DNA from: Pomacea canaliculata
Taxonomy: Eukaryota > Mollusca > Gastropoda > Architaenioglossa > Ampullariidae
Length of the DNA stretch: 64,000 nt
Reading direction: 5' to 3'
NCBI RefSeq assembly: GCF_003073045.1
Contig: NC_037596.1
Span: 29,637,184-29,701,183 of the forward strand
Shown: positions 5,353 through 64,000 of the stretch, piece after piece
How positions within the stretch are numbered: the first letter of the stretch is position 1
Layout: every line of letters begins with the position of its first letter
Translations under genes and position numbers: made by a program
Notes under the pieces: model-generated
What the model was told of the DNA's origin: nothing
What the model saw: the letters and a program-made list of their open reading frames with translations, nothing else
Database searches by the model: none

Positions 5353-5410
5353 ATGATGCGCTCAGTCCTCAGTGTCTGTGTGATGTTTACTCTTCTACTA
5401 CAAGGTTTGA
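5353..5410 (+). CDS. Gene 1 signal-peptide exon
   Basis: Two tandem ATGs with A at -3, then Arg and a hydrophobic core (VLSVCVMFTLLL) ending at QGL, with a phase 1 donor A|GTAAGT. This is a typical secretory signal peptide. The exon is identical in genes 1, 2, 3, 5 and 6. Confidence 0.85.
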
Positions 5411-8400
5411 GTAAGTACTGTTACACTTTGTCTTAATATCGTGATGCTATGATGCTGCAAGAAGACCATGCCACCCACTGTAGTACTCGTGTGATGACCG
5501 ACCTTTACAGCATCAGTAAAGTCAGCGGCATGACTGTAGTGTCACGTGACCCTGACTGGGCTCCTAAAAAGGCCTGCAACATCCTGAACGTCCTGAACGA
5601 CATGGTTCATCTGTTCTAATACCTGCGTATATAGTGACACTTGTTCTATGTACTCGGGACAAGATGTTATCGGTGTCCTTTATCAGTTATATCTTAGACA
5701 TAGTTACAATGCTATGTGGAGAGGCTTATATCAAGAAAAAGAGGCGTTTCCTCTGATGTAAGAACTGTCTGTTACATTTACTTAGTTTTTACTGTTAGGT
5801 ACAGTTTTTTTTCATAAATTTGACATCTTACGTCTTATGTAAATCAACAGAGAAACAGATTTTTTTTCTTTTCCAGTCTTTATGTAATAAGATTTGCTGT
5901 AGCTCGTTACGAATTCACTTTCATGGTTGATTAGATGCACAGCGTGAAGTCCGGCTTGTGAATGGAACTGCATCGTGGAATGGTGTCCTTGAGATGTTGT
6001 ACAACGGAACATGGCGCACATTGTGTAGCTTTATGTTTAGGAAACAAGAGACACAGGTGGTCTGCAGGATGCTGGGCTTCAACACGTGTGTAATGTTTTG
6101 TGATCTCATATGTAGTGCAATTATATTTGTTTTTTCATGTTATATTCACGATAAACAGATAATATACTACAGTTTCTTAAGCGGACATTTTAACTTTCGT
6201 CTTATTAGAATAAGACCTAACTAACCTTTGAGTTCCATACCGATTCCAGATAATCTTTTTATATAAGATAAAATAAGAGAAAAAAAATTGATCCCAAAAC
6301 ACTCTGTGTGTGTGTGTGTGATTTGTTTACAAAGAGAAAATGGGACAATTAAGTAATATAAAAATCAAGTAGACATAAAATAATGAAACAAGTTCATAAT
6401 TATGTCGTTTGTACTGATTAAAAAATTTTGACTAACTTAGTTTATAATTAAAAACAGATAACAAAAGCAATGCGCCTGCATGTATATGCAAATTGCTTTC
6501 TGAAAAAGTGTGTTGATTTTGACTGCATTTAGATAGTAACTATAGATAAAAACAGACAAACGCACAAACATACCTTTTGTAAAACAGGTCGCAAGTTTAT
6601 ACCAGGTCCCTATCTGGAGACAGAATGAGCTACACCTATATCATGTTTAACGTCCTGAGGTGTACAGGTGAGGAGACCAGCTTAGAGAAGTGTAGTCATA
6701 CAATGATTAGCAGTGACACCTGGTGCCCCCTTGCCATTGCTATCACCTGCAACTCACGTAAGAATCTGTTGTTTCTATTCTGTTGTTTGCTGTGTCACAT
6801 TATGTATCCTCAACTGCAGAAAAAGAAACATTGGCACATTTACCGCTTTTTATGCAAGAATTCCTTACAAAAGAGATATCAAGCATGCAAGAATATTTAA
6901 AGATTAGGTAAAACACATGATGTATTTTCACAACAATTTAAATGTTAGAACTTAACAATATTGCAACGTATCTTAATTATTATATGATTTTTGTCTTTGC
7001 TGTTGTTGTTGTTGTTGTTGTTGATTTAGAAACTCGTTTGTCTGACAGATACTGAAGTGGCAATGCACATATCGGCAAACTTATAAAGATTTAGTAAATA
7101 TCTGACGGCTTGTTACAGAAAAGATACAGGTGAGATTGAACGTCACCTCACCTAACAGACGTCAGGTACAGATAAACATCGGAGTTAATAATTGGACGAC
7201 AGTGTGTGTGGAGTCTAACATCACTGCCAGGGTCGTCTGTAGACAGCTCGGCTTACCATGGTAAGTTCTTTTCTCCTGTTAGTGTACGAGTATGTAAAAG
7301 AATAATGAATGCTGATTCACCTGAAATTACACATTTTAAGTGAATGAACTATCAACCTTGCTAATCATTAAATGCTGATTTTGAAACTACATTTTTCACA
7401 TACAGCTAAACACATGTCTAAAAATGTTCACCTGTTATTCCATCCATTCATTTTTTACTTACAATCTATCCCTATCGCTTTAAAACGAAAATACTTGACA
7501 TGAGTTACTTCAGATGTAACAAAACATATCCTATATATTTATATAGGGGAATAAATAAACGCCTGTAATATAGTTGTTATGTTCTCATTAAGAGTATATC
7601 TATCTACATAAATACTGATCTATGAATGCTGACTGTTGTCGTCTGAATTATACCATGATCTATTTATTTATCTAACCTATACGCATAGCACAAAAGTTCT
7701 TCTGAAATAATAACAGCTGAAGCATTTTAATTAAGTATTACTAATTATCAGAACAAGTGTTTTAAGCAAAAGTCATTCTGCAATGTTTAGGCTTGGTGCC
7801 TGGGCGTTTGTATATAAAGACAGTTGGATCTCTGGTGATTTGTTATCTTGCCTTGGGAATGAGACTAGCATCACTGAGTGTAATCAATGGCAGCCTACTG
7901 CCTGCCGGGATTACACCATCACTTGCAGTAACTGTAAGAACTTCTTTTTTTTTTTTATAAAAGTAAAACTCATCAACGTGTGTACGATTTCTATGTTAGG
8001 TTTACCGAATGAAACTACACGTTTTGCATATGTAACACAGTCTCATATTCAACTAAATGTGTAAATGTCTTGTGCAAATGCAGCCAACTAAAGGGATGCA
8101 ACTTTCTATATAAAAAAGCCTTGCTTCTGCTGCCTCTTTAACAGAATATGTTTTATTTTATTTATTCTGTTTTAATTTGAAATTCTTTATAACAACTAAA
8201 TATTTTGAAAAATCCACTCGGTGATAAGTCTTATGTATATCCTCTCCTTCTACCTTGTTTCAGTTTGAGTCACACCTTATATCATTTTAGGAACATAACG
8301 AAAAGGAATAATTAATATCGTTTATGTTAAATAAAGAAAATATGAAAACTGATAAGACAAAAATAAAAGCTTTAATTTTTTGATGCCGTGAGGAAAAAAC

Positions 8401-11400
8401 GAGGGTATCGATGAAATATTAATTTTTGCTGAAGAGGCGTTTGTTCATTATAAAATTTATAGTTACCATATATATATATTCACATGTTTTGCTTAAGAAC
8501 ATGTTGTAAGGAGCGGTAAGACATGCAAAGTTAGCTACATATTTGTGAGGAAGCAAATTAATTTTTAGTTGAATGTCGCTAACAGTTTCAAGTCTTTTAA
8601 ACAGTTTCTGTCAACATCCATACAAACAGTAGCAGATATCCTTTCATGGAGGAAACAAAAGCTACTTTAAAGTGTGCGAGCAATAATCAGTCTGGTGTAA
8701 TAAAGTACACGTGGCCAGAAAATGCAGGCTGGTTCCCTGATGGCAGTAGCCTGATCATCACTAGAGTGACCAGGAAACATCATGGAAGGCGAGTGAGGTG
8801 TGAGGCGATGTCTAGTGATGGTGAAGTTGTCTCCAGTGACAGACTTCAATTACAGGTTTACTGTGAGTATTGGGGTCCACCGGCAATGAATGCTGTGAAG
8901 ATGTGTAGTTTTATTAAGCGTTTCAACTTAAATATGTTGCTAAATACGGACTAAAATAAGTGACTAGGCTACTGATGAAAGTGCTTTATGTACAAGCTGC
9001 CATTAGTTTTTTCCATGTATGCGTGTGTTTGTATGTGTCTATGTAAAGCTGTGAACAGGTGTCAACAAAAATGGTTACTTTTGGTTAAAGGGAGATGTCA
9101 AAAATAAATAAGGTCCACTGTAAGACACCTTAGTCTGATTGAATGGATGATATGTGCGACGAATCACATTCTATCGGCTTGTTTACAGATCGCCCGGTTA
9201 TCAGGATAACACGGAGTGACAATCAGGGTCAGCCACTGTCCACCTACTCTGAGGTCATCAAGGGTCACAATGTGACGTTTGTGTGTGACGCTGACAGCAA
9301 CCCGCCTCCTGCTTCCATCACGTGGTCAGGGAAAGTGAGGAGCACTACTGGGGAGTTACACATCATAGCAGCACAGCAGACGACACACAACGGTATCTAC
9401 ACCTGTACCGTGGTCACTGAGACAGATGATGACGATGATCGTCTACCACTGATAGCATCTTACCAGCTTGCTTTTATGGTTAAAGGTATCCTGATCTCTT
9501 TATATTTTTCTTTTTTTACCTCTCTCTGTGTCACAAGAGAGTAGTGATAGAGCTATAGTGTGGGGTTAGCACTTCTCCTCTGTTCCCGTGACAGACTCGC
9601 TGGCAAACTCACCGACGTAAAGAGGGCGTTGTGGCAGGTTGAGTAAGAGCAGTCATCGCATTAAGCGTACGTTTGCTACTTAAAAGACCGCTTACCACGT
9701 GACAGTCGCACAACATAGGACTGCAGTGCGCTAGTGACGTAACAGACGTACCTCCAGGGACAATCCGGACTTTGATTACGATTTAGAGAAGGACGATATT
9801 GTCACAACGGGAGCTAGGAAAGGAAACCAGACAAGTAGGCATCGGGATTATTTAACATACGTAGAGGCTGATGGCTGATGACTCTTCTAATACACTAGCT
9901 GTGATGTGTGATTGGTTGTTATTGTAGATCATGTGGTATGACTGGACAATCGAATGCATTTAAGATCACAGGACGGCGTTTTAATATTGGGGTTTGACCA
10001 CAAAACGACGCTTTTCGCTACGGATCATTAGAGAGTAAGTATCGAAGTACTTCGCAACTGAAGTATTCGCTACATTGTGTGTCAGCTATCACCAGTGACA
10101 CAGAAGACGTGGGGTTAGGGTCACGGACCAAGAAAGTCAAAGCCCACTCATTAAACTGAGTGTAAAAGAAGAGTGACTTTTGTCCATGCGAACTCCCGAC
10201 CAGCTCTTGGTATCGTAGAACCATTGTGCGAAATCGCAAGTGACAGTTGTGTGTGTTCATCAGAGACTAACATTCCACACAGCAAAGGCACTCGGGTCAA
10301 GATGACTGGCATGTGTATGAGAATTGTACGGAGTGAGTGAGCGTGTAGTGGTACGAGTGTAGTAGGTAATAATAGATTCACTCACTAGATTTTTGGATTA
10401 GTATGATGGAGAATAATTAGTATTATGAGACGCCATAGATAACTATCCAACATAGGGAACTACTTCATTTGCATATGTGCATTTTTTTATACCTTCATCA
10501 TTTTGCAATTTGTAAAAATACTCTTGATGATTAAAAACTTTCTTTAATACACTAAACGGCCCTGAATTATTTATTAGAATTATGCGTGCTCGGGGGCTCG
10601 AGCTAATTATAAATATAATAATCAATTTAGTGTAAGTGCACGTGGTAAATGTCGCGTGAGTTGGTAGAGGTATCGAGAGTGTGATAGGCCGAGATTACCT
10701 CTGACCATGTCCACGTGCTCATTCCCCTCAGTCAGTGACACTCTGCTGTTTGCGTTAATAACACATTCTATAAAATTAATTTTTACTTCTTCATACATTT
10801 GACTTATCTTAAAGAACTTAAGTTTAGGTGTCAAATGTATGTAACAAGTATAGGTAGTATACCTTTGTTTGCAAAGATCGTTTTAAATAGAGCAGTCAGA
10901 CATAACTTGTTGGCTTTTAGTTGTTACTCAGGCGAATTTGATTTAATGTTGCTAACAATTTCACATATTTTAAACAGTTTCTGTCAACATCCACACAAAC
11001 AGTAGCAGATATCCTTTAATGGAGGAAACAAAAGCTACTTTCAAGTGTGCGAGCAATGAGCTGTCTGATGTAATAAAGTACACGTGGCCAGAAAATGCAG
11101 GCGGGTTCCCTGATGGCAGTAGCCTGATCATCAGTACAGTAACCAGGGAACACAATGGAAGGCGAGTCAGGTGTGAGGCGATGTCTAGTGATGGTGAAGT
11201 TGTCTCCAGTGACACACTGCAATTACAGGTTTACTGTGAGTATATTTATCCGACAACAATGAATGTCATGAATAAAGATACTTAGTCATCGATAGCATTT
11301 AGTCTTCTGAAGTAAATGAGTTTCACGTTCAATAGCGCTTTTACTTAAGTGAAGACTAAGTACGTGACTATACTACGGTAGAAAGGGGTTTAAGTACAAA

Positions 11401-12653
11401 CTGTCATTAGTGGGTTTTATTTTGCTTTTTCTGTGCGTGAGTGTGTGTGTGTAATTTATCTGTCAACAAAAATAAAAACTCCTGGACCAGACACCTTTCT
11501 GATTCAATAGATGATATGTTTGACGAATCACGTTCTATCGGCTTGTGTACAGATCGCCCGGTTATCAGGATAACACGGAGTGATAATCAGGGTCAGCCAC
11601 TGTCCACCTTCACTGAGGTCATCAAGGGTCACAGTGTGACGTTTGTGTGTGACGCTGACAGCAACCCGCCTCCTGCTTCCATCACGTGGTCAGGGAAAGT
11701 AAACAGCACTACTGGGGAGCTACACATCATAGCAGCACAGCAGACGATACATGAAGGTATCTACACCTGTACCGTGATCACTGAAACAGTTGATGATCAT
11801 GATCGTCTGTCGACAACTCATCAACTTGGTTTTATCATTAAAGGTATTCTAAGGCATTTACACCCTCTCTCTCTCTCTCACACACACACACACAGATTAA
11901 CATTTTGTATTTTCTGCCAGGTTTGGAAACACCTTCAGATATTTCGCGAAACACGGTCATTTTCTCACTTTTTATTCTAAGCCTTATAACCAGGAACATT
12001 TTGCGTCTTTCGGCGACACTTATTCATGTACATCATGGGTTTAACAACATGACACAATGCTGAGGTAAGTGAAACAGCAATTAATCAAAGCAGAGATTAT
12101 TAATTACCCTTAGGTCACGTTAGATATATTTTTCTTTTATCGAACTTTTAAACTAATAGTTACTTATGTTTGCTAAATCTTTGTCTTTGCTGACCTTTCA
12201 AATAAATTACAGGAAGTGTAGTAAATACATTTTTAGATCATTAACTTTTATAACCAGCATACATAAACTATTTTTTCTGTAAGAACAATATATTGTATCT
12301 TCTCTGACATAAAGATTTATAGGAACCTATAGTATTTATTGAAATATTTCCTCGTGACCTGTAAAATATCTCTTTGCAAGCTATATCGGTTATTTATTTA
12401 ATTATTTTGTTTGTTCTTCAGGTAAAAAGAACGAGACATAAAGTGATTTCATCAGCGCAGCATTTTGTGCACGTGAAGTTTACATTGCCGGATGGTTAAA
12501 GAATTTGAGTGCATGAATAGACGAGAGGGTCAGTGAGTTGACCTTACGTCTAAGTTTGTTTTTTTTTTCAAGTGAACACCAGCATTATCTCTTCAGACTT
12601 TGATGACAAAGTCAACTGTGTGAACGATCACTTGTGTGACGTGCACGTGACAT
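5353..12653 (+). CDS. Gene 1: signal, SRCR x2, Ig x4 protein
   Basis: Multi-exon gene for a secreted or surface SRCR-Ig protein. Exons: 5353-5410 signal; 5935-6085 and 6588-6757 SRCR1; 7119-7260 and 7791-7933 SRCR2; 8605-8862 Ig-A1; 9189-9485 Ig-B1; 10978-11235 Ig-A2; 11553-11843 Ig-B2; possible 12573-12653. Phases agree at every junction: phase 1 between domains and phase 2 inside each SRCR domain. That gives about 589 codons to Ig-B2 and 616 with the last exon. Intron 1 is only 524 bp and lacks the LINE seen in genes 3, 5 and 6. Both Ig-A copies carry ETKAT where most copies have ETNAT, losing one N-glycosylation sequon. No membrane segment or certain stop was found, so the 3' end is open. 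Pattern recognition or adhesion is a family-level expectation, not shown here. Confidence 0.82.
5935..6757 (+). CDS. Gene 1 SRCR domain 1 (two exons)
   Basis: Exons 5935-6085 and 6588-6757. The first begins REVRLVNGT and contains LYNGTWRTLC and VVCRMLGFN. The second contains LRCTGEETSLEKC, TWC and ITC. Six cysteines and a split over two exons fit group A SRCR. The reading frame needs the donor AACAC|GTGTGT, giving a phase 2 junction; the two other nearby GT sites lead to stops. Confidence 0.85.
7119..7933 (+). CDS. Gene 1 SRCR domain 2 (two exons)
   Basis: Exons 7119-7260 and 7791-7933. The first contains VRLN, NNWTTVCVES and RVVCRQLGLPW; the second contains LSCLGNETSITEC, TACRDY and ITC. 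Six cysteines are present. The first exon is 9 nt longer than in gene 3 and 9 nt shorter than in gene 5, through in-frame indels before QV(Q/E)I. Confidence 0.85.
8605..8862 (+). CDS. Gene 1 Ig-A1 exon
   Basis: A 258-nt phase 1-1 exon encoding one Ig domain: LKCAS (first Cys), YTWPEN (core Trp) and RVRCEA (second Cys). The B-C loop reads SNNQSGVIK and the F-G loop SSDGEVVSSDR. AGWFPDG replaces the usual AGGFPDG. Confidence 0.85.
9189..9485 (+). CDS. Gene 1 Ig-B1 exon
   Basis: A 297-nt phase 1-1 exon, Ig (I-set-like): RPVIRI, VTFVCDADSNPPPASITW, YTCTVV. The F-G loop is TETDDDDDRLPLIASYQ with five consecutive Asp. Confidence 0.86.
10978..11235 (+). CDS. Gene 1 Ig-A2 exon
   Basis: A 258-nt phase 1-1 Ig exon. 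The B-C loop is SNELSDVIK; it has ATFKC instead of ATLKC and STVTREHNGRR instead of TRVTREHHGSR. It follows a 1.5-kb intron that contains no other recognisable exon. Confidence 0.85.
11553..11843 (+). CDS. Gene 1 Ig-B2 exon
   Basis: A 291-nt phase 1-1 exon, two codons shorter than most Ig-B exons because the F-G loop is reduced to TETVDDHDRLSTTHQ. It also has GHSVTF in place of GHNVTF, which removes a sequon. Confidence 0.85.
11975..12063 (+). other. Possible untranslated or terminal exon (tail block)
   Basis: Starts CCTTATAACCAGG after a CTAAG acceptor-like site and ends TGCTGAG|GTAAGT. Similar blocks lie at 13396-13480, 21310-21398, about 34953-35041 and about 53080-53135. The 5' splice site is kept, but the reading frame is not conserved. 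From Ig-B2 the frame would close after a few to about 20 codons, depending on the acceptor. Confidence 0.35.
12573..12653 (+). CDS. Gene 1 candidate post-Ig exon
   Basis: A long pyrimidine tract and CAAG acceptor precede 81 nt that stay open in the Ig-B2 phase and end T|GTAAGT (phase 1-1). The peptide begins VNTSIISSDFDD and contains two cysteines (VNC and HLC). A second possible phase 1-1 exon follows at 12768-12827 (LNSTSSCPITS...). Gene 2 has a deletion across this region and no clear match was found in genes 3 or 5, so conservation does not support it. Confidence 0.35.
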
Positions 12654-16375: not shown

Positions 16376-17108
16376 AACACATAAAGCGGTTATACCAAAT
16401 AAGAGAAACTCTGTCAGGCAGGAACATCAACCCAAACAAGCAAGTGAAAGATAAAGACGGCAAGACCATAACAAACGAAGCAGGACAAAGAGACCGCTGG
16501 ATGAAACACTTCGAAGAGATCCTGAACAGACCTCGTCCACTGTCTTTACCTGACATGCCAGCGCCACTGAGGGACCCCAAGTCAATACCAGCCCTAGCAC
16601 TAAGACAGAAGTCATCAAAGCTATGAAAACATGAAAGGTGGCAAAGCAGTAGGCCCGGATGGTGTAGCACAACAAGCATTAAAGGCAGATCCAGAAACAA
16701 CGGCAAAACGTTTATAGCGCCTCCTACACGAGGTCTGGGAACAAGAATTAGTACTAACAGACTTTATGCTGGTTAAGTTACCAAAGAAAGGAGACTTCTC
16801 CCACTGCAACAACTGACAGGGGATCATGCTGCTGCCCATCATTAGCAAAGTTTTGACATGGGTAGAACTAGAGAGAGGGATGAAGGAACTGGACAAGAGA
16901 CTGAGACCAGAAGAAGCAGGGTTTCACCAGGAAAGGTCATGCACTGACCTCATTGCCACTATCTGTATCGTCATTGAGCAGTCTATTGAGTGGCAGTCCT
17001 CACTTTATGTAACTTTAGTGGACTTTAAAAAGGCATTTGACCGTGTAGACAGACAAATCACCTGGATGCTGATAATCCACTCTGGAATTCAACCCCATGC
17101 TTCTCTAT
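16376..17108 (+). mobile_element. LINE-A reverse-transcriptase fragment
   Basis: Remains of a non-LTR retrotransposon ORF2. KDKDGKTITNEAGQRDRW and HFEEILNRP precede MKGGKAVGPDGV, then PIISKVL, AGFHQERSCTD and LYVTLVDFKKAFDRVDR (RT finger and first palm block). Internal stops and a frameshift break it, and the palm YxDD block is absent. The second half recurs at 41434-41690. The clade is probably CR1/RTE-like but was not resolved. Confidence 0.8.
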
Positions 17109-17239
17109 GAGTAACAAGGAATAAACATAAAAATCGGGATGATCTTTTAAAGAAAAGCGTAACTAATGTTTGAAAGTATAGTGATTTTACAAGAGGAAGA
17201 CAACCAGGAAAGTAGCAATAATCGGAAAGGGAGGGAAAG

Positions 17240-17900
17240 GTATAAAAACGGACAAGCATTGTGGGAAATGGTCTATGAGTTCCGTTATTTCGATGACTTT
17301 AACTAAAACTCATGTGTCCATATGCTGCTTTGATCAAACGATGGTTGTCAAAGAGCAAAATTTCTAGCTGTCACTGAAGAGAAGTTCAAAGAAATAGCCA
17401 TGAATTAAAACACAGCACAGACAGTTTACACTTGATGCAAGAGCTATTGGGTAGCCATTACAGACAATGAAAGTAAGAAGTAACACCGATCTGTTTCCTA
17501 GTTCTAAACACCTGAATTATAACAGGCAGAAACATTTGACAGTTTCTAAAATCTTTTGTCACCACAAATATTATGTGTAGCTGCATGCAGGACAAACAGA
17601 TTGAGGCCGTTAATGGTTTATTCGGTTGTGTGATTTCTGAGTGTGAAGTCTATGTCATCAGGAAGGAAGAGGCGTGAGCATCGCTTGTGTCCACACTGAC
17701 AACAACGACAGTATTATCGACACGTCAGTGCTTCTTCCTGCTAACGAAGCTTGACTTTACGGCTGAAAGTTGCGATAAATACAAAAGCTTTTTCCGAAAA
17801 TTCCGCCATAAGCTCCTGAGATTATTAGCTATCAGAATCGTTTACAGTAAAGTCAACAACACAGAGCAAATAATCTAGTTGGGACAAATGTTGGTGCAAC
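17240..17900 (-). mobile_element. LINE-C 3'-end fragment, inverted
   Basis: Reverse complement of the LINE C-terminal segments at 38.8-39.5 and 58.6-59.25 kb. Shared stretches include GGACAAGCATTGTGGGAAAT and ATGTGTAGCTGCATGCAGGA. The coding frame is decayed. Confidence 0.65.
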
Positions 17901-19500
17901 GAAAAGTCTACAATAGACAAAAGGCATTTTAATTTACATCCTCATGATCCCCTTGTAAGCCAGACTTGTAGTTTTATTGTATTATTTTTTGTGTGTCTTG
18001 AACGGACCCCTTTGATCCTCAATTCGTACTATCTAGATTCTGCTTAAAAACAAACATAATTAAAGAAAAGGAAAACTTCCATACCAAAATAACAAACACT
18101 GAAAGGAAACTCCTTAAACACACAGAAGTAAAACATAAAAGTGAGGTAGGAAAAGATAAATAATACAGAAAAGCATATACATTGACTCTCTACACATTTC
18201 ACAAACACTTGCAAGAGATAAATATCAGGCAGTTCAACATAAATTCGACCACGATGACCTCACAAATTGTAATAACAACTGAAGTCTTGCTGTAATATTA
18301 AGAATACAGTCGGTCTCAGCAACACACTGAGAAATAGAGATTAACTGTCCGCATTCCTAGCAAATGAAGCTCTTGACATAACATAAGCTAACACACATAA
18401 AGAGCGAAGAGAGATTACAGTGGTCACTAAACGAATTAACAACATGTCCATCAACAGTTTTACTGTCTCTCGTGTTAAAGATATTTCCTAGAGTTCATTG
18501 TCTATGTTTCACTATGTAAATGATTCCACTCGGACTGTAACAACATCCTAAAGAAGCTTAGAATGACGTAACATGACATCACATGGCATAATAGCGTCAT
18601 GCACACGTCATCCAGAGTTCATTGCGTCAGTGTCTGATATTCCTGCGAGCATGTACTGCAGTAGCAGTCTTAGTAGCATGAACTTCGTGTGCTACAAACG
18701 CAAGTAGATAAAATTCTCCATTTTATTTCTTAAAAATATTATATATGCCTGTATAATATAATTGCTAGTCTGCACAAAATTTTTTCTTATATTTTGGTAA
18801 ATTAAGAGAACTGAACCCCACTCAACGTTTCTTCCTTCTAAATAAATAAACTATTCGTATTCCTTAGACAACTTGTGTGTAGGACTGTCGTCAGATGTGT
18901 CAGATATGTGTATGAGACAATACAGTTTCTTTTTTCTTGCTGACAATCAGAGTACGAGGATGACTTACATGCCACAAAATCACCAACGAATAGTATATTA
19001 TATAGATGGATCGAAATCCACAGACCTTTTGTACTCAATTATGGTTGCTTCTAATTTCTTATCTATGCTTAACAAATATTCGTTACAATAGCTGTACGAA
19101 GTTTTCTTCTGTCGGCTACTTTTAGCAGCAACCCACCAGAATTTGCAAGTTTTCGTGCATGATATGACTACATGTACAAGTACACACGAGCCGCTAAACG
19201 AATCTGTGCAAATATTTCTGTAAAACCCTATCTCCTTTTATTTCGGACAAACTAATCATTAATCAACATTGCAAGTAAACTTAAGATTTGTAAACATTTA
19301 CACCTGTCATGATTAATGCCGAGCAGTTTTAAAAGCTCCTAATTTTTTTTCTCGGGAAGTTTACAACCAGGTCGCTGGGGATTTCAAGTACACTAAAGTA
19401 CACTGATACATATTTTTTTTAAAAATGTGTGCTGCTACAAAGGCCTTAGAATATATATGATAGACGCAATGCACATGTAGTGGCTTCATACGTCCATTAA
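17901..19500. repeat. Intergenic block duplicated at 42.5-44.35 kb
   Basis: Collinear with 42471-44345 apart from an indel of about 350 bp (43206-43557). Part is also related to 37.1-37.9 kb, and 18959-19215 recurs at about 59520-59800. No gene was recognised. Confidence 0.7.
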
Positions 19501-19827: not shown

Positions 19828-21162
19828 ATGATGCGCTCAGTCCTCAGTGTCTGTGTGATGTTTACTCTTCTACTACAAGGTTTGAGTAAGTACTCAATTA
19901 CACTTTGTCTTAATATCGTTATGCTATGATGCTGTAAGAAGTCCATGCCAGCCCCTGTAGTACTCGTGTGATGACCGACCTTTACAGCATCAGTAAAGTC
20001 AGCGGCATGACTGTAGTATCACTTACTGGGTTTTTTGTCGTCACTTCATACAAGAATGTTAAGGTTAAGTTAAAGTCACACCTGATATGATTTTAGGAAC
20101 CTAGCATAAATGAATGGTAAAGATTGTTTATCTTTAATAAAGAAAATATATCACTGTTTACAAATAAACTAATAGCTTTCACTTTTAATGCAGTGAAATG
20201 CAGAAAGGATGGACCATTGCAAAATTTAGCTCTACTGAAGAGGCCTTTGTTCATTTAAAAATATTTAGTTACGAGATAGAGATTTAATTCAGGTTTTGCT
20301 TACGAACATGTTGTAGGGACCATACAGACATGAAGTAGTTGGCAAGACATTTCTGCTGAGGTAGATTAATTTTAACTTTAATGTCGCTAACAATTTCAAG
20401 TCTTTTTTACAGCGCCTGTCCACATTCGTACAAAAAGTAGAAGATATCCGTTAAAGGAGGACTCAAATGCTACTTTAAAGTGTGAGAGCAATGAGCGGTC
20501 TGGTGTAATAAAGTACACGTGGCCAGAAAATGCAGGTGGGTTCCCTGATGGCAGTAGCCTGATCATCACTAGAGTGACCAGGGAACATCATGGAAGCCGA
20601 GTGAGGTGTGAGGCGATGTACAGTGATGGTGAAGTTGTCTCTAGTGACACACTGCAATTACAGGTTTACTGTGAGTATTGGGATCAAACGACAATGAATG
20701 CGCGCGTGTGTGTATAGACGTGTACTGGCATGAAGTGTCAATACAAATAGTTACTTCTGGTTAAATGTAAATGTAAATAAATATATAAAGTCGAGCCTAA
20801 GACACCTTAGTCTTATTGTAAGGATGATATGTGCGACGAATGACGTGCTATCGGCTTGTTTACAGATCGCCCGGTTATCAGGATAACACGGAGTGACAAT
20901 CAGGGTCAGCCACTGTCCACCTACTCTGAGGTCATCAAGGGTCACAATGTGACGTTTGTGTGTGACGCTGACAGCAACCCGCCTCCTGCTTCCATCACGT
21001 GGTCAAGGAAAGTGAGCAGCACTACTGGGGAGTTACACATCTTAGCAGCACAGCAGACGACACACGAAGATATTTACACCTGTACCGTGGTCACTGAGAC
21101 AGATGATAACGATGATCGTCTACCACTAAGGGCATCTTACCAGCTTGCTTTTGTCATTAAAG
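19828..21162 (+). CDS. Gene 2: signal plus one Ig-A/Ig-B pair
   Basis: Short family member with exons 19828-19885 (signal), 20413-20670 (Ig-A) and 20866-21162 (Ig-B), about 204 codons. The intron after the signal exon is only 527 bp and holds no SRCR exon. Because signal and Ig-A junctions are both phase 1, direct joining stays in frame and gives QGL-TPVHIRTKSRRYPL. The Ig-A start differs from others (KEDSNAT for MEETNAT, KCES for KCAS). All Ig cysteines and the core Trp are present. It could be a two-Ig secreted form or a gene shortened by deletion. The 3' end is unknown; a tail block lies at 21310-21398. Confidence 0.8.
20413..20670 (+). CDS. Gene 2 Ig-A exon
   Basis: 258 nt, phase 1-1. 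The B-C loop is SNERSGVIK and the F-G loop YSDGEVVSSDT. The acceptor is TTTTTTACAG. Confidence 0.85.
20866..21162 (+). CDS. Gene 2 Ig-B exon
   Basis: 297 nt, phase 1-1. The F-G loop is TETDDNDDRLPLRASYQ. WSRKV replaces WSGKV, and THEDIYTC replaces the usual Gly before the F strand. Confidence 0.85.
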
Positions 21163-41690: not shown

Positions 41691-41829
41691 ACAAGGAATA
41701 AACATAAAAATTGGGATGATCTTTTAAAGAAAAGCGTAATTAATGTTTGAAAGTATAGTGATTTTACAAGAGAAAGACAACCAGGAAAGTAGCAATAATC
41801 GGAAAGGGAGGGAAAGGTATAAAAACGGA

Positions 41830-45006: not shown

Positions 45007-48000
45007 ATGATGCGCTCAGTCCTCAGTGTCTGTGTGATGTTTACTCTTCTACTACAAGGTTTGAGTAAGTACTCAGTTACACTTTGTCTTAATATCGCTA
45101 TGCTATGATGCTGCAAGAAGTCCATGCCAGCCCCTGTAGTAGTCGTGTGATGACCGACCTTTACAGCATCAGTAAAGTCAGCGACATGACTGTAGTATCA
45201 CGTGACCCTGACTAGGCTCCCCACTAGCTCGCAAGCAACATCCCCGGACATTCAGGCCAGAAGTGGCTCATCTGTTTCAGTACTTGCATGATGGTTACTG
45301 GTCATCACTGAAGCGTATACAGTGACACTTGTTCCATGCACTCAGATAAAGACGCACTAAATCTATGACAGCAAATGGTGGCCAGACTGGCAAAACGCAC
45401 TCTTAATTCTAATAACATGTCTACCACCCATCGAGTGTCAGTCAACACACAGCTAAACAAATACAAGGAACACAGTAAATAGGACTTCTCCCACTGACAT
45501 CTAACTGAACATATCAACACAAAAAGTGGCTAGTGAAGGAGAAAAAGAGAAGATATAAAAGGTAAAAGCAGAGAATTAGACAAAGCAAATCAGTTACCCG
45601 AAAATGTTGTGGAAAATAAATAAAAGATGGGTAAAAGTGAAAGACACCTACCGGAAGAAAACATTTCAAAAGATGAATGGATAAATCACTTTAAAGACGT
45701 TTTCCAAGATAATAACCCTCATATACCTGAGAATCAGCCTGGAATAGAGGAACTTAATGAGTCCATTAGAGAGAGCGAGGTACATACCGCAATACGAAAC
45801 CCCAAGTCGCAAAGTGTGTGGCACAGATAAAGTGTTAGTAGAATGTTGAAATCAGCCGGTGACCAGGCAGCTGACTTTTTAACCTAATATTTTAATTCGA
45901 TTTTTGCTAGCGGGACATGTATACGTATATAAAAGAAGCCATAATTGTACCAATCTACAAGCTTTTACCTTAAACGCAAGCAGGCTTTAGGAAGGGCTAC
46001 TCAACAACACATAATATATTCTTATTGTAAGCTGTGATTAAAAAATATCTCAGTAAACCAGCCAGATGGTATGCACGGTTAGTGGATAGGGGCGTATGAT
46101 TCTGTCCAACAGGCAACATTACTGAGTGCCCTATTTATCTCTGGAACATCTCTCCTATTTACTAAAACAATAATGTCAATGTATGAATCTCTAAAAGCGT
46201 GAATTCGAACGAATAACCAACTCATCGATAAGAAAGACAAAAAACAGAAACCGTTTTTCGCCATTTTTTTTTTTCATCTATTCTTCAGATTTTTAATATA
46301 TCTCAGTATTTAAACCTTTGCATCTGGGCAAGCAAATAAACATCATTGAGATATTTGTGGTGACATCCGTTTATTAAGATTTCTTTTTGTGATCTCATGC
46401 GTCGGTGTACTTTATTACATTTATGTTCGACATAGTTACAATGTTATATAGAGAGGTTTATATAAAGCAAGTAAGGTTCTTTCTCTGGTGTATGAAATGT
46501 CTAATACTTTTACTTATTCATTCTAGAATAGAAAAAAAAGTTTGTTACTGTTAGCTACAGTTGTTTTCATAAATTGGACATGATAGTGTCTTACGTTAAT
46601 CAAAAGAGGAAAAGAAATGTTTTAATTTTTTTAAGTCTGTAGGTAATAACATTTGCTGTAGCTCGTTACGAATTCACTTTGATCGTTGATTAGATGCACA
46701 GCTGCAAGTTCGGCTTGTGGATGGAGCTGCCCCGTGGAATGGTTTCCTTGAGATGTTGTACAACGGAACATGGTACCCAGTGTGTGTCGATAAGTTTAGC
46801 AAACAAGATGCACAAGTGGTCTGCAGAATGCTGGGCTTCAACACGTGTGTAATGTTTAGTGATCTTGCGCTTATATGTAGTGCATTTATATTTGTTTTTT
46901 CATGTTATATTCTCGATAAACAGATAATATACTACAGAGTCTTAAGCGGTTATTTTACTTTCGTCTTATTCTAACCGCTAAGCTGCATACCGATTCGAGA
47001 AATTCACAATAACAAAAAAATGTTGATGCAGAAGCACTTGTGTGTCTGTGTTGAAGTGTGTCATTTGTTTACAAACATTAAAAGGGACAATTAAGTAATA
47101 TCAAAAGCATGTAGACATAAAATAATGAAACAAATTCATAAATATGTCGTTTGTACTGATTAAAAAATATTGACTAACGTAGTCTATAACTAAAAACAGA
47201 TAATAAAAGCAATGCGCCTGCAGGTATATGCAAATTGTTTTATGAAAAAGTGTTGATTTTGACTGCATCTAGTCTGTATCTATTAAAATAAGTCGGTACA
47301 TTCTATAGATAAAAACAGATAAATGCACAAACATACCTTTTGTCAAACAGGTCGCACGTTTATACCGCGTCCTTATATAGGTACAGTAGGAGCTACAACC
47401 ATATCATGTTTGACGACCTGAGGTGTACAGGAGAGGAGACCACCTTAGAGATGTGTAATTATACAAGGATTATCAGAGACCTCAGCAACCGCGATGTCAT
47501 TGCTGTCACCTGCAACTCACGTAAGAATCTGTTGTTTCTATTCTGCTGTTTGCTGTCTCGCATTATGTATCTTCAAATGGAGAAAAAGAAACATTGACAC
47601 ACTGACCATTTTTTATGCAAGAATTCCTTACAAAGGAGATGTAAAGCATGCAAGAATATCTAGAGATTAGGTAAAACACATGATGTATTTTCACAACAAT
47701 TAAAATATTAGGACTTAACATTATTGCAACCCATCTTAATTCTATAAATGATTTTTGCCTTTTTGTTGATGTAGAAACTCTTTTGTCTGCACAGATACTG
47801 AAGTGGCAATGCACATATCGGCAATCTTATAGTGAATATATGATGGCTTGTTACAGAAAACATGCAAGTGCGATTGAGGGATATTAACTTTTTGGGACCT
47901 AACAGACGTCAGGTAGAGATAGACATCGGAGTTGGTCAGTGGGGACCAGTGTGTGTGTCGACTAACAACACTGCCAGGGTCGTCTGTAGACAGCTCGGCT

Positions 48001-51000
48001 TACCATGGTAAGTTCTTTTCTCCTGTTAGTGAACGAGTCTGTAAAATAATGATGAATACATTCTACTGAATTTACACAGTTTAAGGGAATTAACTATCAA
48101 CCTTGCTAATCATTAAATGCTGAATTTGAAACTTTACATTTTACACACAGCTAAACACATGTCTAAAATGATTCCCCTGTTACTCCATCCATCCATCCAC
48201 CCATTCATTTTCTACTTACAATCTATCCCTTTAAAAAGAAAATGCTTGACATGAGTTACTTTAGATGTAAGAAAATAGATCTTATATACAGTGATACCTC
48301 GGTTCTCGAACGCCTTGACTTTCGACCAAATCGGTATTCGACCAGGAAATTCGAGAAAATTTTGTCTTGGAATCCGAACAAATATTTGGAACTCGAACAT
48401 CCGAACGTCCGAGATGAGACGAGTTGAGCTGAATGGCGTTCATTCTGCCCAGCGCGCCTTGCTTACGTCATCAGTGTGAGTGCAGAGAGAGAGAGAGTCA
48501 CGTTTTTGTGGAGAGAGTCATGAAATGTGTGCAAAATGGGCAGAAATCGCAAATTTTGTTGAACAACATCACCCTGATAAAGTGGTAGCAAATAGAGCAG
48601 TTAACATTTTTAATGACAGTGTTATGTCCACTTTCCGCAAAATTTTGCAAAGGAGAAAAAAACAGCAAACAATTGACAAATTCTTCCGTAAAGAAAACAG
48701 ACAAGCAACTGCAGAGCAAGATTCTGATTCTCCTCAGCAAAAGATACAGAGAACAGAAACACCCGAAGAGCAGTTACCCTCTGTTTTTATTGAAAGGACT
48801 CCCCTTCAAAACAATAACCATCCCCCTTCCCTCCTCCCTCCACATTCATTCCCTCCTGCCATAAAGTTTGATACAGGTACAGTAAATGAAACACAATTTA
48901 CTGTACTGTACTGTACATTTTTTTGTTTTTGTTTTAATAAATACACTTTAATTTCTTATTTCTTGTTGAGACTCATGTTTTTCTACATATTATATACAAA
49001 TTAGGCCAGTAAATAGACATTTTCTGGGGTTTGGAACGAATTAATCCAGTTTCCATTATTTCCTATGGGTTTCATTGCTTCGGTTCTCGAACAATTTGGT
49101 TCTCGACCGTCTTCCCGGAACGAATTATGTTCGAGAACCGAGGTATCACTGTAGTTATATAGTGGAGTTAATAAACGCCTGTAATATAGTTGTTATGTTC
49201 TCATTAAGAGTATATCTATCTACATAAATACTGATCTATGAATGCAGACTGTTGTTATTTGAATTATACCATGATCTATTTATTTATATAATCTTGCACG
49301 ATACGGATGCATAGCACAAAAAGTCTTCTAAATTAACATCGCCTGAAGCTTTTTAATTAAGCATTAATAATTATCAGAACAATTGTTTTAAGGAAATATT
49401 ATTCTGCAATGTTTAGGCTTGGTGCCAGGACGTTTTTATCTAAAGTCGTTTCGGTCCGTCGTGATGTCCCATCTTGCTTTGGTAATGAGACTAGCATCGC
49501 TGAGTGTCAGCTTGAGACGTCTAGTGACAAATACTGCCCGGATTACACCATCACTTGCAGAGACTGTAAGAATTTCTTTTTTTATAAAAGCAAAACTCAT
49601 CAACGTGTTTACAATGTGTACGTTAAGCTTAACAAATGAAATTTTTTTTCATATTGACTACAGAAAAAATATTTTAACTGTTTCTAGTCACGTTCGACTA
49701 AATGTCCTAAATCTTTTCCACAAATGAAGCTAGCTAAAGGGATGCAACTTTCTATTTTAAAAAAAAAGACCGCTACTATTGCCTCTGTAACAGTCCATAT
49801 TTATTTTATTTATTTTATTTTTATTTGAAATTCTTCTTATAATCTAAATATTTTTTTAAATGCACTTTGTGATGTCTTATCTATGTACTATCCTTATACC
49901 TTTTCATGCATGTTTATTATAAACTTGTCTAACCCTTACTTTTTTTCTGTCACTTTATTCAGTAATGTTAAGGTTCAGTTTAAGTCACACCTTATATCAT
50001 TTTAGGAACTTCATGAAAATAAATAATCAATATCGTTTATGTTAAAGAAGGAAAATATGATAACTGATTAGAAAAAAACTTAAACCTTTAATATTTGGAT
50101 GCCGTGAGGAAATAAAGAAGGTATGGATGTAATATTTATTTTTGTTGAAGAGGCGATTGTTTATTATAAAATTTTTAGTTACCAGACATATATATCTATA
50201 TATAATTACATGCTTTGCTTAAGAACATGTTGTAACAGCGGTGAGACAGGACTTATTTAGCATCTTTCTGCGGAGAAAAATTAATTGTTAGTTTAATGTC
50301 ACTAACAGTTTCAAGTGTTTTCTTTTTTTTTAACAGCTCCTGTCAACATCCACACAAACAGTAGCAAATATCCGTTAATGGAGGAAACAAATGCTACTTT
50401 AAAGTGTGCGAGCAATGAGCGGTCTGATGTAATAAAGTACACGTGGCCAGAAAATGCAGGCGGGTTCCCTGATGGCAGTAGCCTGATCATCACTAGAGTG
50501 ACCAGGAGACATCATGGAAGCCGAGTGAGGTGTGAGGCGATGTACAGTGATGGTGAAGTGGTCTCTAGTGACACACTGCAATTACAGGTTTACTGTGAGT
50601 ATTGGGGTCCAATGACAATAAATGTGTGTGTGTGGACGTGCAATGGCGTGAACTGTCAATAAACATAGTAACTTTTGTTTGAAAGGAAATGTCAATAAAT
50701 ATATAAAATGAAGATTAAGACATTTGTCTCACTGAATCGATTGGATGTGCTACGAATCACGGTCTATCGGCTTGTTTACAGATCGCCCAGTTATCAGGAT
50801 AACACGGAGTGATAATCAGAGTCAGCCACTGTCCACCTACTCTGAGGTCATCAAGGGTCACAATGTGACGTTTGTGTGTGACGCTGACAGCAACCCGCCT
50901 CCTGCTTCCATCACGTGGTCAGGGAAAGTGAGAAGCACTACTGGGGAGCTACACATCATAGCAGCACAGCAGACGACACACGACGGTAACTACACCTGTA

Positions 51001-52186
51001 CCGTGGTCACTGAGAAAGATGATGATGATGATCGCCTTCCACTAATAGCATCCTACCATCTTGCTTTTATCGTTAAAGGTATCCTTATACTGACCTTTCT
51101 TTTACTTTCTTTAACTCTGTCTGATGTTTGCTTTAATAACACATTTTATAAAATAGTTTATTTATGTTCATCCATTTACACTTATCTCAAAGAACTTAAG
51201 TGTAGATGTCAAATATATGTAACAAGTATAGGTAGTATACCTTTCTTTGCATAGATCGTTTTAGATGGAGCAGTCAGACATAACTTGTTGGCTTTTACTT
51301 GCTGCATGGGCAAATTTCATTGAATGTCGCTAACAATTTCACGTGTTTGTAACAGTTTCTGTCAACATCCATATCACCAGTAGCGAATATCCTTTAATGG
51401 AGGAAACCAACGCTACTTTAAAGTGTGCGAGCAATGAGCGGTCTGGTGTAATAAAGTACACGTGGCCAGAAAATGCAGGCGGGTTCCCTGATGGCAGTAG
51501 CCTGATCATCACTAGAGTGACCAGGGAACATCATGGAAGCCGAGTAAGGTGTGAGGTGATGTCTAGTGATGGTGAAGTTGTCTCCAGTGACTCACTGCAA
51601 TTACAGGTTTACTGTGAGTATTGGGATCCAACGGCTATGAATCCTGTGGAAATAATCGCTAAATACGGACTAGAAAAAGGGAGTAGGCTACTTATGAAAG
51701 TGCTTTATGCACAAGCTGTCATTAGTTGATTTTTTTCCGTGCCTGCGTGTGTTTGTATGTGTATATGTAAAGCTGTGAACAGGTGTCAGCAGTAATGTTT
51801 TTTTTTTTTTTTTGGTTTAAGGGAAACACCTAAGTCTGATTGAATAGATAAGATGTGCGACGAATCTCGTACTATCGGCTTGTTTACAGATCGTCCGGTT
51901 ATCAGGATAACACGGAGTGACAATCAGGGTCAGCCACTGTCCACCTACTCTGAGGTCATCAAGGGTCACAATGTGACGTTTGTGTGTGACGCTGACAGCA
52001 ACCCGCCTCCTGCTTCCATCACGTGGTCAGGGAAAGTAAACAGCACTACTGGGGAGCTACACATCATAGCAGCACAGCAGACGACACACGACGGTATCTA
52101 CACCTGTACCGTGGTCACTGAGACAATTGATGATGATGAACGCCTTCCACTGAGAGCATCTGACCAGCTTGCTTTTATCGTTAAAG
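45007..52186 (+). CDS. Gene 5: signal, SRCR x2, Ig x4 protein
   Basis: Exons: 45007-45064 signal; 46694-46844 and 47351-47520 SRCR1; 47857-48007 and 49417-49565 SRCR2; 50337-50594 Ig-A1; 50782-51078 Ig-B1; 51356-51613 Ig-A2; 51890-52186 Ig-B2. All phases agree; about 596 codons without a stop. SRCR1 lacks the fifth of the six cysteines (LSNRD where gene 1 has TWCPL), which should leave its partner unpaired. The SRCR2 intron carries a Tigger-like element (48289-49151), and intron 1 a LINE-B fragment. SRCR2 has the longest first exon (151 nt). The 3' exons were not recognised. Confidence 0.83.
45535..46270 (+). mobile_element. LINE-B fragment in gene 5 intron 1
   Basis: Matches the 28.8 and 62.7 kb copies: INHFKDVFQD, NQPGIEELNES and ESEVHTAIRNPKSQS, then a degenerate palm region (TQAGFRKGYST near 45975). 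Internal deletions and stops are present. Confidence 0.75.
46694..47520 (+). CDS. Gene 5 SRCR domain 1, one cysteine short
   Basis: Exons 46694-46844 and 47351-47520. GTWYPVC, VVCRMLGFN, LRCTGEETTLEMC and VTC are present, but IIRDLSNRDVIAVTC has no cysteine where genes 1 and 3 have TWC/PWC. By the usual group A pairing this is C7, the partner of C2. Confidence 0.83.
47857..49565 (+). CDS. Gene 5 SRCR domain 2 (two exons)
   Basis: Exons 47857-48007 and 49417-49565. QWGPVCVS, RVVCRQLGLPW, VPSCFGNETSIAEC, KYCPDY and ITC give six cysteines. The intron between is enlarged by the Tigger element. Confidence 0.85.
48289..49151 (+). mobile_element. Tigger/pogo-like element with transposase C-terminus
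   Basis: 863 bp with perfect terminal inverted repeats of at least 20 bp beginning CAGTGATACCTCGG, flanked by TA. The interior (about 48480-48890) encodes the C-terminal region of a Tigger-type transposase: FVEQHHPDKVVANRAV, NIFNDSVMSTFRKIL and QQTIDKFF, then a Gln/Pro-rich tail. QQTIDKFF fits the PCNA-binding PIP-box pattern. The catalytic domain is missing, so it is non-autonomous. The same intron in gene 3 shows the unfilled site. Confidence 0.88.
50337..50594 (+). CDS. Gene 5 Ig-A1 exon
   Basis: 258 nt, phase 1-1. B-C loop SNERSDVIK; F-G loop YSDGEVVSSDT; TRRHHGSR near the E-F turn. Confidence 0.85.
50782..51078 (+). CDS. Gene 5 Ig-B1 exon
   Basis: 297 nt, phase 1-1. F-G loop TEKDDDDDRLPLIASYH with five Asp from consecutive GAT codons. 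NQSQPL replaces NQGQPL. Confidence 0.85.
51356..51613 (+). CDS. Gene 5 Ig-A2 exon
   Basis: 258 nt, phase 1-1. B-C loop SNERSGVIK; CEVMSSDGEVV replaces CEAM. N-terminal HITSSEYPL replaces HTNSSRYPL, losing a sequon. Confidence 0.85.
51890..52186 (+). CDS. Gene 5 Ig-B2 exon
   Basis: 297 nt, phase 1-1. F-G loop TETIDDDERLPLRASDQ. Confidence 0.85.
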
Positions 52187-54214: not shown

Positions 54215-54358
54215 AACTCTAAGCATGTCTGGTTAACGAAGCTTTTCGTGGAATGGTCTGTTTAAAATATTGTACAAGGGGACATGGGGCACAGTCTGCA
54301 CAGATGGTTTTGGGGAAGAAGAAGCCATTGGTGTCTGTAGGATGCTTGGCTTAAACAC
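54215..54358 (+). pseudogene. Decayed SRCR first-half exon after gene 5
   Basis: Readable as WNGLFKILYKGTWGTVC, TDGFGEEEAIGVC and RMLGLN. A TAA near the start and a one-base deletion before WNG break the frame. The GCAG acceptor and AACAC|GTACAT donor persist. It differs from the active SRCR1 exons (GEEEA), so it comes from another SRCR lineage, perhaps an ancestral downstream domain or a lost neighbour. Confidence 0.7.
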
Positions 54359-54611
54359 GTACATTTTGTTTATAATACTAGAATTTGTTAGCTCAAAGAA
54401 GGTAGGCTTACAGTCTGCATATATGAAAGAATCATAGATAATAACGCTATAACAAAATGGTGTATATTAGTTATCTACATTAAAACAACATCCTTTTATT
54501 TTAAATTCAAGAACTCTAAAACTAGACGTCTAACTTTTTCTTTGTCATCGACTTAGCTATATACACATTACATCAATGCTGAAAATACATTGTTGTATAA
54601 CCATTCCATTA

Positions 54612-61240: not shown

Positions 61241-61260
61241 CTATGACTATATAAATACTA

Positions 61261-61625: not shown

Positions 61626-61683
61626 ATGATGCGCTCAGTCCTCAGTGTCTGTGTGATGTTTACTCTTCTACTACAAGGTTTGA
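61626..61683 (+). CDS. Gene 6 signal exon (gene continues past window)
   Basis: The signal exon is identical to the other copies, with donor A|GTAAGT. Intron 1 follows with a SINE and LINE-B and ends at the window edge in DNA that corresponds to about 170 bp before the SRCR1 exon of gene 5. The body of the gene must lie beyond 64000. Confidence 0.8.
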
Positions 61684-62331
61684 GTAAGTACTCATCTACA
61701 CTTTGTCTTAATATCGTTATGCTATGATGTTACAAGAAGACCATGCCACCCCCTGTAGTACTCGTGTGATGACCGACCTTTACAACATCAGTAAAGTCAG
61801 CGGCTTGACTGTGGTGTCACGTGACCCTGACTAGGCTTCCCAATAGCTCGCCTGCAACATCCTGGGACGTACAGACCAGACTTGGCTCATCTGTTGGAAT
61901 ACTTGCATGACGGTACATAACTGACACGTATATTAAGACCAGCCTCCAGTTACACAACTTTACCGAGTATTTTTTTGTAATTTGCTCCGGCTAAAAAACT
62001 AAGTCATCATGGTAGACCATCCGGGGGTGTTTTAGTCATGGTAATCAGACATAAACATTTATCGAACAAATAAAAACAATTATCATGTGGCGATACTTAG
62101 CATCAACCGAAAGATAATGAAGTTAGATAAAGATGTTATTTTGATGTAATCAGGACAAGGACACCATTCAATCTGTGTAATGCTTTTGATTACTTTTGTG
62201 CATCCAACGAGCTGTGTAAGGAAGAGATATTCCTGTCTTTAAAAGTCGAAAATAATGTACAGTCCGACCATCTGCCAGTCTCACTGACAATGCGCAGGAC
62301 ACGAACAGACCGCGAGAACCCACGTGGAAAT

Positions 62332-62734: not shown

Positions 62735-63735
62735 TTTTACAGGTAACCGTAGAAAGCAACCAGACTGGTTTGACCAAGAATGTACACAGCCATAAAAATC
62801 TTGTTTACATAAATAGAGATGTCAAAGGTCGGATCAGTCTTTATCAATCTGTAGAGGCAAGGCAACAGTACGGGAGGCTAGTGAAGGAAAAAAAAAGAGA
62901 AGATATAAATAAGTAAAAGCAGAGAATTTGACAAAGCCAATCAGTTACCCCAAACTGTTTCGTAAAGCAATAACATAATGTTTGAGTAATACAGGGTGAA
63001 AATATCACAAAAGATGAATGGATGAATCACTTTAAAGACGTTTTTCAAGATGAGAACCCTCATATATCTGAAGTTGATTGCACAAATTTTGATAATCAGC
63101 CTGGAATAGAGGAACTCGATGAGACCATCAGAGAGAGAGTGAGGTACATACCGCAATACGAAACCTCAAGTCGCAAAGTGTGTGGCACAGATAAAGTATT
63201 AGTAGAATGTTTAAATCAGCGGATGAAAAGGCAGTTGACTTTTCAACTAAATATTTTTGGTCAATTTTTGCTAGAGGGAAATGTATATGTATATAAAAGG
63301 AAGCTATAATTCTAACCATGTATAAGAAATGCAATCTCGAGTGCCCAGTAACTACACAGGTATCTCCCTTCTACGCGTGTTGGGGAACTGCTGCTCATCA
63401 AGATTTAAGAGAAGACATAAAAAAAAAGTTTTTACCTGAAACGCAAGCAGGCTTTAGGAAGGGCTTTCCAACAGCAGATAATATATCCTCATTGTATGCT
63501 GTGATTAAGAAATATCTCAGTAAACCGACCAAACGGTGTGCAGGGTTAGTGGACAGAGGATAATGACTCTGTCCAACACGCAACATTACTGAGAACCCTA
63601 ATTATCTCTGGAACATCTCTCCTATTTACTAAAACACTAATGTCATTGTATGAATGTCCAAAAGCATGTATTCGAACGAATAACCAACTCACCGATAATA
63701 AAGACAGAAAACAGAAACCGTTTTTCGCTATTATT
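62735..63735 (+). mobile_element. LINE-B fragment in gene 6 intron 1
   Basis: Longest LINE-B copy: MNHFKDVFQDENPHISEVD, FDNQPGIEELDETI, then ETQAGFRKGFPTADNISSLY and IKKYLSKP (RT finger/palm region), ending QKPFFAI. Frameshifts and stops throughout; the catalytic YxDD block is absent. Confidence 0.78.
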
Positions 63736-64000
63736 TGTTTTTTCTTTTATTCTTCAGATTTTTAATGTATCACAGCATTTAAACCTTTGCATTCGGGCCA
63801 GCAGATAAACATCATTGCGATATTTGTGGTGACATGTGTTTATTCAGATTTCTTTTTCGTGATCTCGTGCATCGGTGTCCTTTATTACTTATATGTTCGA
63901 TATAGTTGCAATGTGATACAGAGAGGTTTATATAAAGCAAGTAAGTTGCTTTCTCTGATGTATGAAATGTCTAATACATTTACTTATTCATTCTAGAATA

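Follow-up and report, generated by a model that had tools for sequence, protein, structure and literature searches.

The stretch analyzed here, a window of 64,000 nucleotides from the apple snail Pomacea canaliculata (contig NC_037596.1, hereafter C7, positions 29637184-29701183), is a slice of a tandem array of genes whose predicted products join scavenger receptor cysteine-rich (SRCR) domains to immunoglobulin (Ig) domains. Self-comparison of the window, together with exon searches, revealed six units, all on the plus strand (Table 1). Three of them encode a signal, two SRCR and four Ig domains (5353-11843, 27921-34858 and 45007-52186), one encodes a signal followed by an IgA and an IgB domain (19828-21162), one is a fragment, and one runs off the window, its leader starting at 61626. 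A preliminary description of this DNA had given the same layout, and it holds in all these respects; the single relic that it listed proved to be two, both derived from SRCR1a. Its central proposal, a tandem SRCR-Ig family whose domain number changes between units, is likewise borne out, and understates the case, as the array contains at least 54 SRCR2a exons.

Table 1. Units, domains and relics in the window (window positions).
Feature	Position	Strand	Basis
Unit 1, leader/signal exon	5353-5410	+	exon search and gene model
Unit 1, SRCR1	5935-6757 (exons 5935-6085, 6588-6757)	+	gene model, Pfam
Unit 1, SRCR2	7119-7933 (exons 7119-7260, 7791-7933)	+	gene model, Pfam
Unit 1, Ig	IgA 8605-8862, IgB 9189-9485, IgA 10978-11235, IgB 11553-11843	+	gene model
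Unit 2, no SRCR	leader 19828-19885, IgA 20413-20670, IgB 20866-21162	+	gene model, Pfam
Unit 3, leader exon	27921-27978	+	gene model
Unit 3, SRCR1	29690-29840, 30678-30847	+	gene model, Pfam
Unit 3, SRCR2	31189-31321, 31862-32010	+	gene model, Pfam
Unit 3, Ig	IgA 32811-33068, IgB 33393-33686, IgA 33955-34212, IgB 34562-34858	+	gene model
SRCR1a relic	35877-35945	+	78% over 23 amino acids
Unit 4, fragment	40392-41430	+	DNA from upstream of a leader adjoins the middle of SRCR1a; SRCR1b follows
Unit 5, leader exon	45007-45064	+	gene model
Unit 5, SRCR1	46694-46844, 47351-47520	+	gene model, Pfam
Unit 5, SRCR2	47857-48007, 49417-49565	+	gene model, Pfam
Unit 5, Ig	IgA 50337-50594, IgB 50782-51078, IgA 51356-51613, IgB 51890-52186	+	gene model
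SRCR1a relic	54249-54359	+	57% over 37 amino acids, E 4e-12
Unit 6, leader exon (gene exits window)	61626-61685	+	exon search, leader-region search

Each SRCR domain is encoded by two exons, with phase 2 inside the domain and phase 1 outside it, and each Ig domain by a single phase-1 exon, an arrangement that allows Ig pairs to be gained or lost with the frame intact. All seven predicted gene models, four from the window and three from elsewhere in the array, use only GT-AG introns with matched phases and contain no stops; the three from outside the window were modeled from SRCR1a onward, without a leader, and one of them has four Ig pairs. The three full genes of the window align with one another at 77-86% identity along long exon-intron stretches. 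We regard the anatomy of the window and array genes, as predicted exon structure, as secure.

Profile searches, suggested in the preliminary description, place both kinds of domain in their superfamilies. The SRCR profile PF00530 scores above its cut-off in two stretches of each of the three spliced SRCR proteins (E 2.5e-24, 1.9e-27 and 1.8e-30), as do Ig_2 and Ig_3 in the spliced products, units 3 and 5 having been submitted without their second Ig pair. Group A SRCR domains have six cysteines and are each encoded by at least two exons. The split is present in 12 of 12 domains from six gene models, always as two exons, and SRCR1 carries its cysteines in a 2+4 arrangement in eight of ten genes (unit 5 has one fewer, and locus L036 one more). 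The dual cation site, a conserved trait of the SRCR fold rather than a rule for group A membership, is not conserved here, its VC-D-D motif being kept in none of ten SRCR1 and none of ten SRCR2 domains. In the stem, IgB exceeds the Ig profile cut-off; IgA taken alone falls below it (19.6 versus 27 bits), the IgA of a relative lies above it, and the Cys-Trp-Cys core of IgA (C24, W37 and C66) is invariant in all 15 aligned rows. An AlphaFold model of IgA was uninformative (pLDDT 51) and was not used.

The likeness to the FREPs of snails, which the preliminary description had confined to organization, is indeed no more than that. FREPs end in a C-terminal fibrinogen domain; no fibrinogen exon is matched below E 0.6 in the window or in ten array loci, and none lies in the array among the matches listed of a genome-wide fibrinogen search. 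Instead of one or two N-terminal Ig domains, SRCR units have 1 to 4 Ig pairs that follow two SRCR domains; unit 2 begins with two N-terminal Ig domains and lacks fibrinogen.

The array spans ~1.07 Mb (29.51-30.58 Mb) near one end of the 30.9-Mb contig C7, and the window covers about 1/17 of it. The genome searched comprises 440,159,624 bases in 24 contigs, with 30,920,076 bases in C7; the published assembly is described as 440.1 Mb of contigs, 99.9% anchored, on 14 chromosomes (PMC6129957). All array exon counts are lower bounds because the genome searches scored best candidates only. Every IgB match among the best 150 of 197 candidates lies on C7 (41-100% identity, E down to 6.6e-63), as does every IgA match among the best 150 of 190. 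The genome-wide count of Ig exons that had been proposed gives, at 70% identity or more, at least 85 IgB and at least 82 IgA exons, all within the array and a few of them partial, with no equally close Ig copy outside it among the matches listed. The SRCR2a exons of the array (45-98% identity) account for 54 of 67 matches; the other 13 are weak, 12 of them on C7 and one on contig C11. A 211-bp leader region occurs in at least 39 copies, all in the array and all on the plus strand, identity being at least 90% in 38 of them and at least 95% in 34. With three minus-strand exons among 150 tabulated (54 SRCR2a and 96 IgB), the array is almost wholly same-strand and close to one chromosome end.

Units were grouped by position, with gaps of up to 6 kb, and IgB exons were tallied after each of the 54 SRCR2a exons. 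The tally is one IgB for 25 units, two for 21, three for one, four for one and zero for five, and one further unit, on the minus strand, has one; Ig pairs per SRCR unit range from 1 to 4, the four-pair gene having been read exon by exon. A leader of its own, within 9.5 kb and with no SRCR2a between, accompanies 33 of the 53 plus-strand SRCR2a exons. For six of the 39 leaders, including those of window units 2 and 6, no SRCR2a lies that close. More distant IgB relatives occur on C7 at 0.03-2.07 Mb and 26.5-26.65 Mb (47-69% identity) and at 28.47-29.12 Mb (41-63%), with 11 more inside the array (42-51%), a spread that places the wider family near both ends of the contig.

The leader itself forms an island of ~150 bp around the start codon with sharp edges (for example, window 5253-5412). 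In seven copies, five from the window and two from loci L030 and L032, the 20-residue leader is identical, as are the first 50 coding bases, synonymous sites included. The region from -100 to +49 is 96-100% identical among these copies (96-99% in the 100 upstream bases), identity falling to 75% in the next 50 bases upstream and below 60% beyond +200. Such near-identity exceeds what constraint on the protein would explain and points to a putative nucleotide-level function or to homogenization.

The SRCR heads behave in the opposite manner. Eleven SRCR sets were read, and one (L035) was dropped for a frameshift in SRCR1a, leaving ten genes and 211 codons. In codon models, the ratio of nonsynonymous to synonymous change (omega) under M0 is 1.70, and twice the log-likelihood difference (2dlnL) between M2a and M1a is 151.8, and 23% of sites fall in a class at omega 5.2. 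On separate trees, all four SRCR exons are significant (2dlnL 46.0, 47.4, 17.2 and 42.2; p 1.8e-4 to 5e-11). Omega is 0.63 for IgA, with a nonsignificant 2dlnL of 3.5, and 0.65 for IgB, where a 2dlnL of 24.4 (p 5e-6) comes with a few selected sites. Twenty simulations under the fitted null gave 2dlnL of 0 to 12.5 and M0 omega of 0.42-0.81. In six genes, counted by the NG86 method, nonsynonymous divergence (dN) of the SRCR exons is 0.189 and synonymous divergence (dS) 0.141, with dN/dS of 1.64 (bootstrap interval 1.03-2.84) for SRCR2; for 15 IgA and 15 IgB copies from seven genes, dN/dS is 0.50 (0.36-0.69) and dN 0.058. In their alignable parts, the introns within SRCR domains and those separating the domains diverge by 0.12-0.16, less than the dN of the SRCR exons, and the introns before and between Ig exons by 0.22-0.27. 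At fourfold sites, the first Ig exons diverge by just ~0.08, suggestive of either conversion among these exons or further constraint. The SRCR heads of these ten genes are under diversifying selection, and the Ig stems are constrained.

Where in the SRCR domain does this variation fall? We aligned SRCR1 and SRCR2 to one relative SRCR domain (L012, 28.61 Mb) that keeps VC-DD, LDDV, HNC and QED, and equated positions with SALSA residues D1019, D1020, D1058, D1059, N1081 and E1086 by sequence alignment and by the roles described for them in PMC7043408, according to which mutation of either Asp of the D-D pair abolishes ligand binding in SALSA. That pair, present after VC in the relative, is the one lost from all ten genes in both domains. 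In SRCR1 the two Asp positions hold S/I/V/A/R/D and F/Y/D/K/Q/N, both selected with a posterior of 1.0. Posteriors are 0.98 and 1.0 at the N and E equivalents, and 0.35 and 0.77 at the LDDV pair. SRCR2 has lost the first pair with little variation (V/L, then S/E/P; posteriors 0.01 and 0.53), its LDDV pair stands at 0.00 and 0.96, and its N and E equivalents at 1.0. Equivalents of the SALSA cation ligands are selected at 7 of 12 positions, compared with 30 of 208 overall (hypergeometric 3e-4). By this alignment, the selected SRCR sites cluster at positions that bind bridging cations in other SRCR domains.

Related genes lie at 28.65-28.76 Mb, ~0.9 Mb from the window (L015/16, L018 and L023), and contain two to about six SRCR domains, IgA, IgB, IgC, which is an I-set domain, and IgD, our name for an Ig-sized exon without a Pfam match, all 76 listed matches of which are on C7. 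In L016, L018 and L023, IgD is followed by a glycine-rich exon that is transmembrane-like by eye and then by one or two tail exons, with tyrosine motifs that we take to be YDSL- or YENV-like. The term receptor-like, used in the preliminary description, therefore suits only this subfamily; searches of the window genes turned up no exon of either kind. A gene just upstream of the window has IgA at 29633483, with an in-frame TAA, IgB at 29634105 and IgD at 29635546, and a search of the window located no tail for it. For a transmembrane or tail exon of the array genes, no consistent candidate came from scanning for hydrophobicity, from testing coding potential pairwise or from querying with the tail exons of the relatives, and a conserved segment ~100 nt past the last Ig (...LSLITRNILRL...) was dropped for frame-changing differences between copies.

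Beside these SRCR-Ig genes, at C7:28.58-28.70 Mb, are tandem genes (L009-L014 and L019-L020) with a fibrinogen domain encoded over three exons. In L011, the one locus scanned, a MACPF exon and an EB/EGF-like exon lie upstream of fibrinogen, and we accordingly do not regard these genes, which had looked like FREPs, as FREPs, and rejected a shared origin with them; the other loci show similar open frames by eye only. Neither IgA nor IgB matches the fibrinogen genes, which are ~1 Mb from the window. The third fibrinogen exon also occurs by itself, without the first two, at L016:2858-3097, ~4 kb downstream of an SRCR-Ig gene's IgB, and further fibrinogen-exon clusters are found at C7:20.3-21.8, 27.6-27.8 and 1.97-2.66 Mb and at C14:1.27-1.34 Mb, most of them on the same chromosome. 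SRCR exon clusters elsewhere (C1:3.01-3.07, C1:7.75-7.99, C13:13.77-13.84 and C11:12.6-12.75 Mb) match the SRCR profile more strongly than the array's own exons. Within the window, retroelement-like copies at 16853-18638 and 41430-43207 are 95.6% identical over 1.8 kb, closer to each other than the surrounding units are, and the second truncates unit 4 at 41430. An insertion at 48289-49153, in the SRCR2 intron of unit 5 but in neither of the corresponding introns in units 1 and 3, has matching inverted ends and a reading frame and is presumably a mariner/pogo-type DNA transposon-like element.

We propose, as the more probable interpretation, that the array encodes a modular extracellular recognition family whose SRCR heads vary and whose Ig stems are constant. 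A putative role in recognition is well supported by where selection acts, and immune use would be the likeliest. In each predicted protein, a leader that hardly varies would precede two SRCR heads of group-A type, followed by one to four copies of an IgA-IgB stem. The heads would recognize a range of ligands, the likeliest being surfaces of microbes or parasites, by way of the face at which other SRCR proteins hold bridging calcium; the ancestral acidic cation site would have been dismantled and turned into a variable face, and copies could then bind different ligands without a generic calcium bridge. Unequal crossing-over may gain and lose genes and Ig pairs, with homogenization or constraint keeping the leader and Ig exons uniform. 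The products may act as secreted opsonin-like or surface molecules, and the transmembrane relatives with tyrosine-bearing tails could be signaling partners or ancestral receptors. More tentatively, and with some doubt, we speculate that the array is a chromosome-end repertoire in which a constant leader and a constant Ig stem carry a hypervariable SRCR head, the calcium bridge being dismantled and most of its ligand positions hypervariable, an antibody-like division of labor with variety supplied by array recombination.

Several observations weigh against this model. No leader match of their own was found within 9.5 kb for 20 of the 53 plus-strand SRCR2a exons, and L035 (C7:29997200-29999600), one of 11 SRCR sets, has a one-base frameshift in SRCR1a; some copies may consequently be nonfunctional or draw on a different leader. 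The window genes yielded no transmembrane or tail exon, the relatives' tail exons matching nothing below E 0.03. The codon-model code was custom-written rather than PAML, the null simulations were run without recombination, and gene conversion can inflate site tests. A codon bootstrap of the first six genes is weaker, with omega of 1.34 for all SRCR exons (95% interval 0.96-1.90) and 1.14 (0.74-1.87) for SRCR1 alone, and the intron yardstick is biased downward, since it was computed from blocks differing by less than 40%. Selection is lacking at two of the six cation positions of SRCR1 and at three of the six of SRCR2, and the final two (N and E) lie in a loop of variable length where the alignment is uncertain.

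Might the same pattern have arisen otherwise? A constant stem, a variable head and linkage on a single chromosome also fit allorecognition complexes, and the heads might discriminate self or partners rather than pathogens, in allorecognition, symbiont management or developmental cell recognition; we know of no colony fusion in these snails and consider such roles quite improbable. Reproductive proteins, too, often show omega above 1, and fast-evolving, gland-secreted SRCR-Ig proteins engaged in sexual conflict or egg defense, instead of in hemolymph immunity, are an unlikely, if somewhat better, alternative, the tyrosine-tailed subfamily being a better fit to a signaling receptor. A precedent exists in the Littorina oviduct, where an SRCR-domain protein differs between sibling species (PMC8614816), but this protein has TSP1 and, in one species, C-lectin, and the word immunoglobulin is absent from that article.

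The fragment, the two relics, the frameshifted copy and the transposon-like insertions would all be expected of a decaying array of mostly nonfunctional duplicates with drifting SRCR exons. Drift, however, gives omega near 1, as opposed to the 1.7 and the site class at 5.2 found here, all seven modeled genes are open with intact splice sites, and the Ig exons are constrained; we strongly disfavor decay. Nor do we think it at all likely that uncollapsed haplotypes or a scaffolding error at a repeat-rich chromosome end have inflated the copy number. L035 and L036 have identical SRCR1b and SRCR2b proteins 67 kb apart, and the assembly consists of PacBio contigs, with an N50 of 1.1 Mb, from which alternative heterozygous ones had been removed (PMC6129957); yet this is one near-identical pair among 11 SRCR sets, and the three full genes of the window differ by more than is expected of alleles. 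L035 is nearly identical to L036 across its SRCR exons and is possibly a recent duplicate or an assembly error.

If variable recognition heads on constant stems are indeed what the array encodes, a major invasive snail would possess a large, testable germline recognition repertoire. Its defined variable face would allow tests of ligand specificity in an animal that has no antibodies, and it would be a case in which a hypervariable binding site arose from a conserved, metal-bridged one. FREPs and VIgL of snails are Ig-bearing multigene recognition families of gastropods and in this resemble the array, which differs in having no fibrinogen match in the loci searched and in that its variable heads are N-terminal SRCR domains. 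The preliminary description knew of no family of this domain order; the combination of SRCR and Ig domains is already known, as a "lectin" with an SRCR and two Ig domains, perhaps exclusive to Caenogastropoda, is in print for P. canaliculata itself (PMC9178244, citing Gorbushin 2019). From the same species and with the same kinds of domain as the array genes, this lectin is very likely a member of this or a related subfamily. The passage on it in PMC9178244 mentions no array, copy number, variable Ig pairs, selection or cation-site loss, and beyond that sentence we found neither the array, nor its selection pattern, nor the dismantled cation site in the open-access PMC literature. Sponges and sea urchins have, like the array, large lineage-specific SRCR expansions with a proposed immune role (PMC10855680, whose main text does not mention Pomacea), whereas here SRCR and Ig domains are fused in one array. 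By sequence, the closest solved relatives of the SRCR1 of unit 5 are CD163 (E ~1e-77 summed over nine domains, 2e-11 for the best single domain), CD5L (1e-34) and CD6 (1e-22). Unlike the apple-snail genes, none of these, to our knowledge, has Ig stems or belongs to a hypervariable array. CD6, as described in PMC7043408, has likewise lost calcium dependence on the same face.

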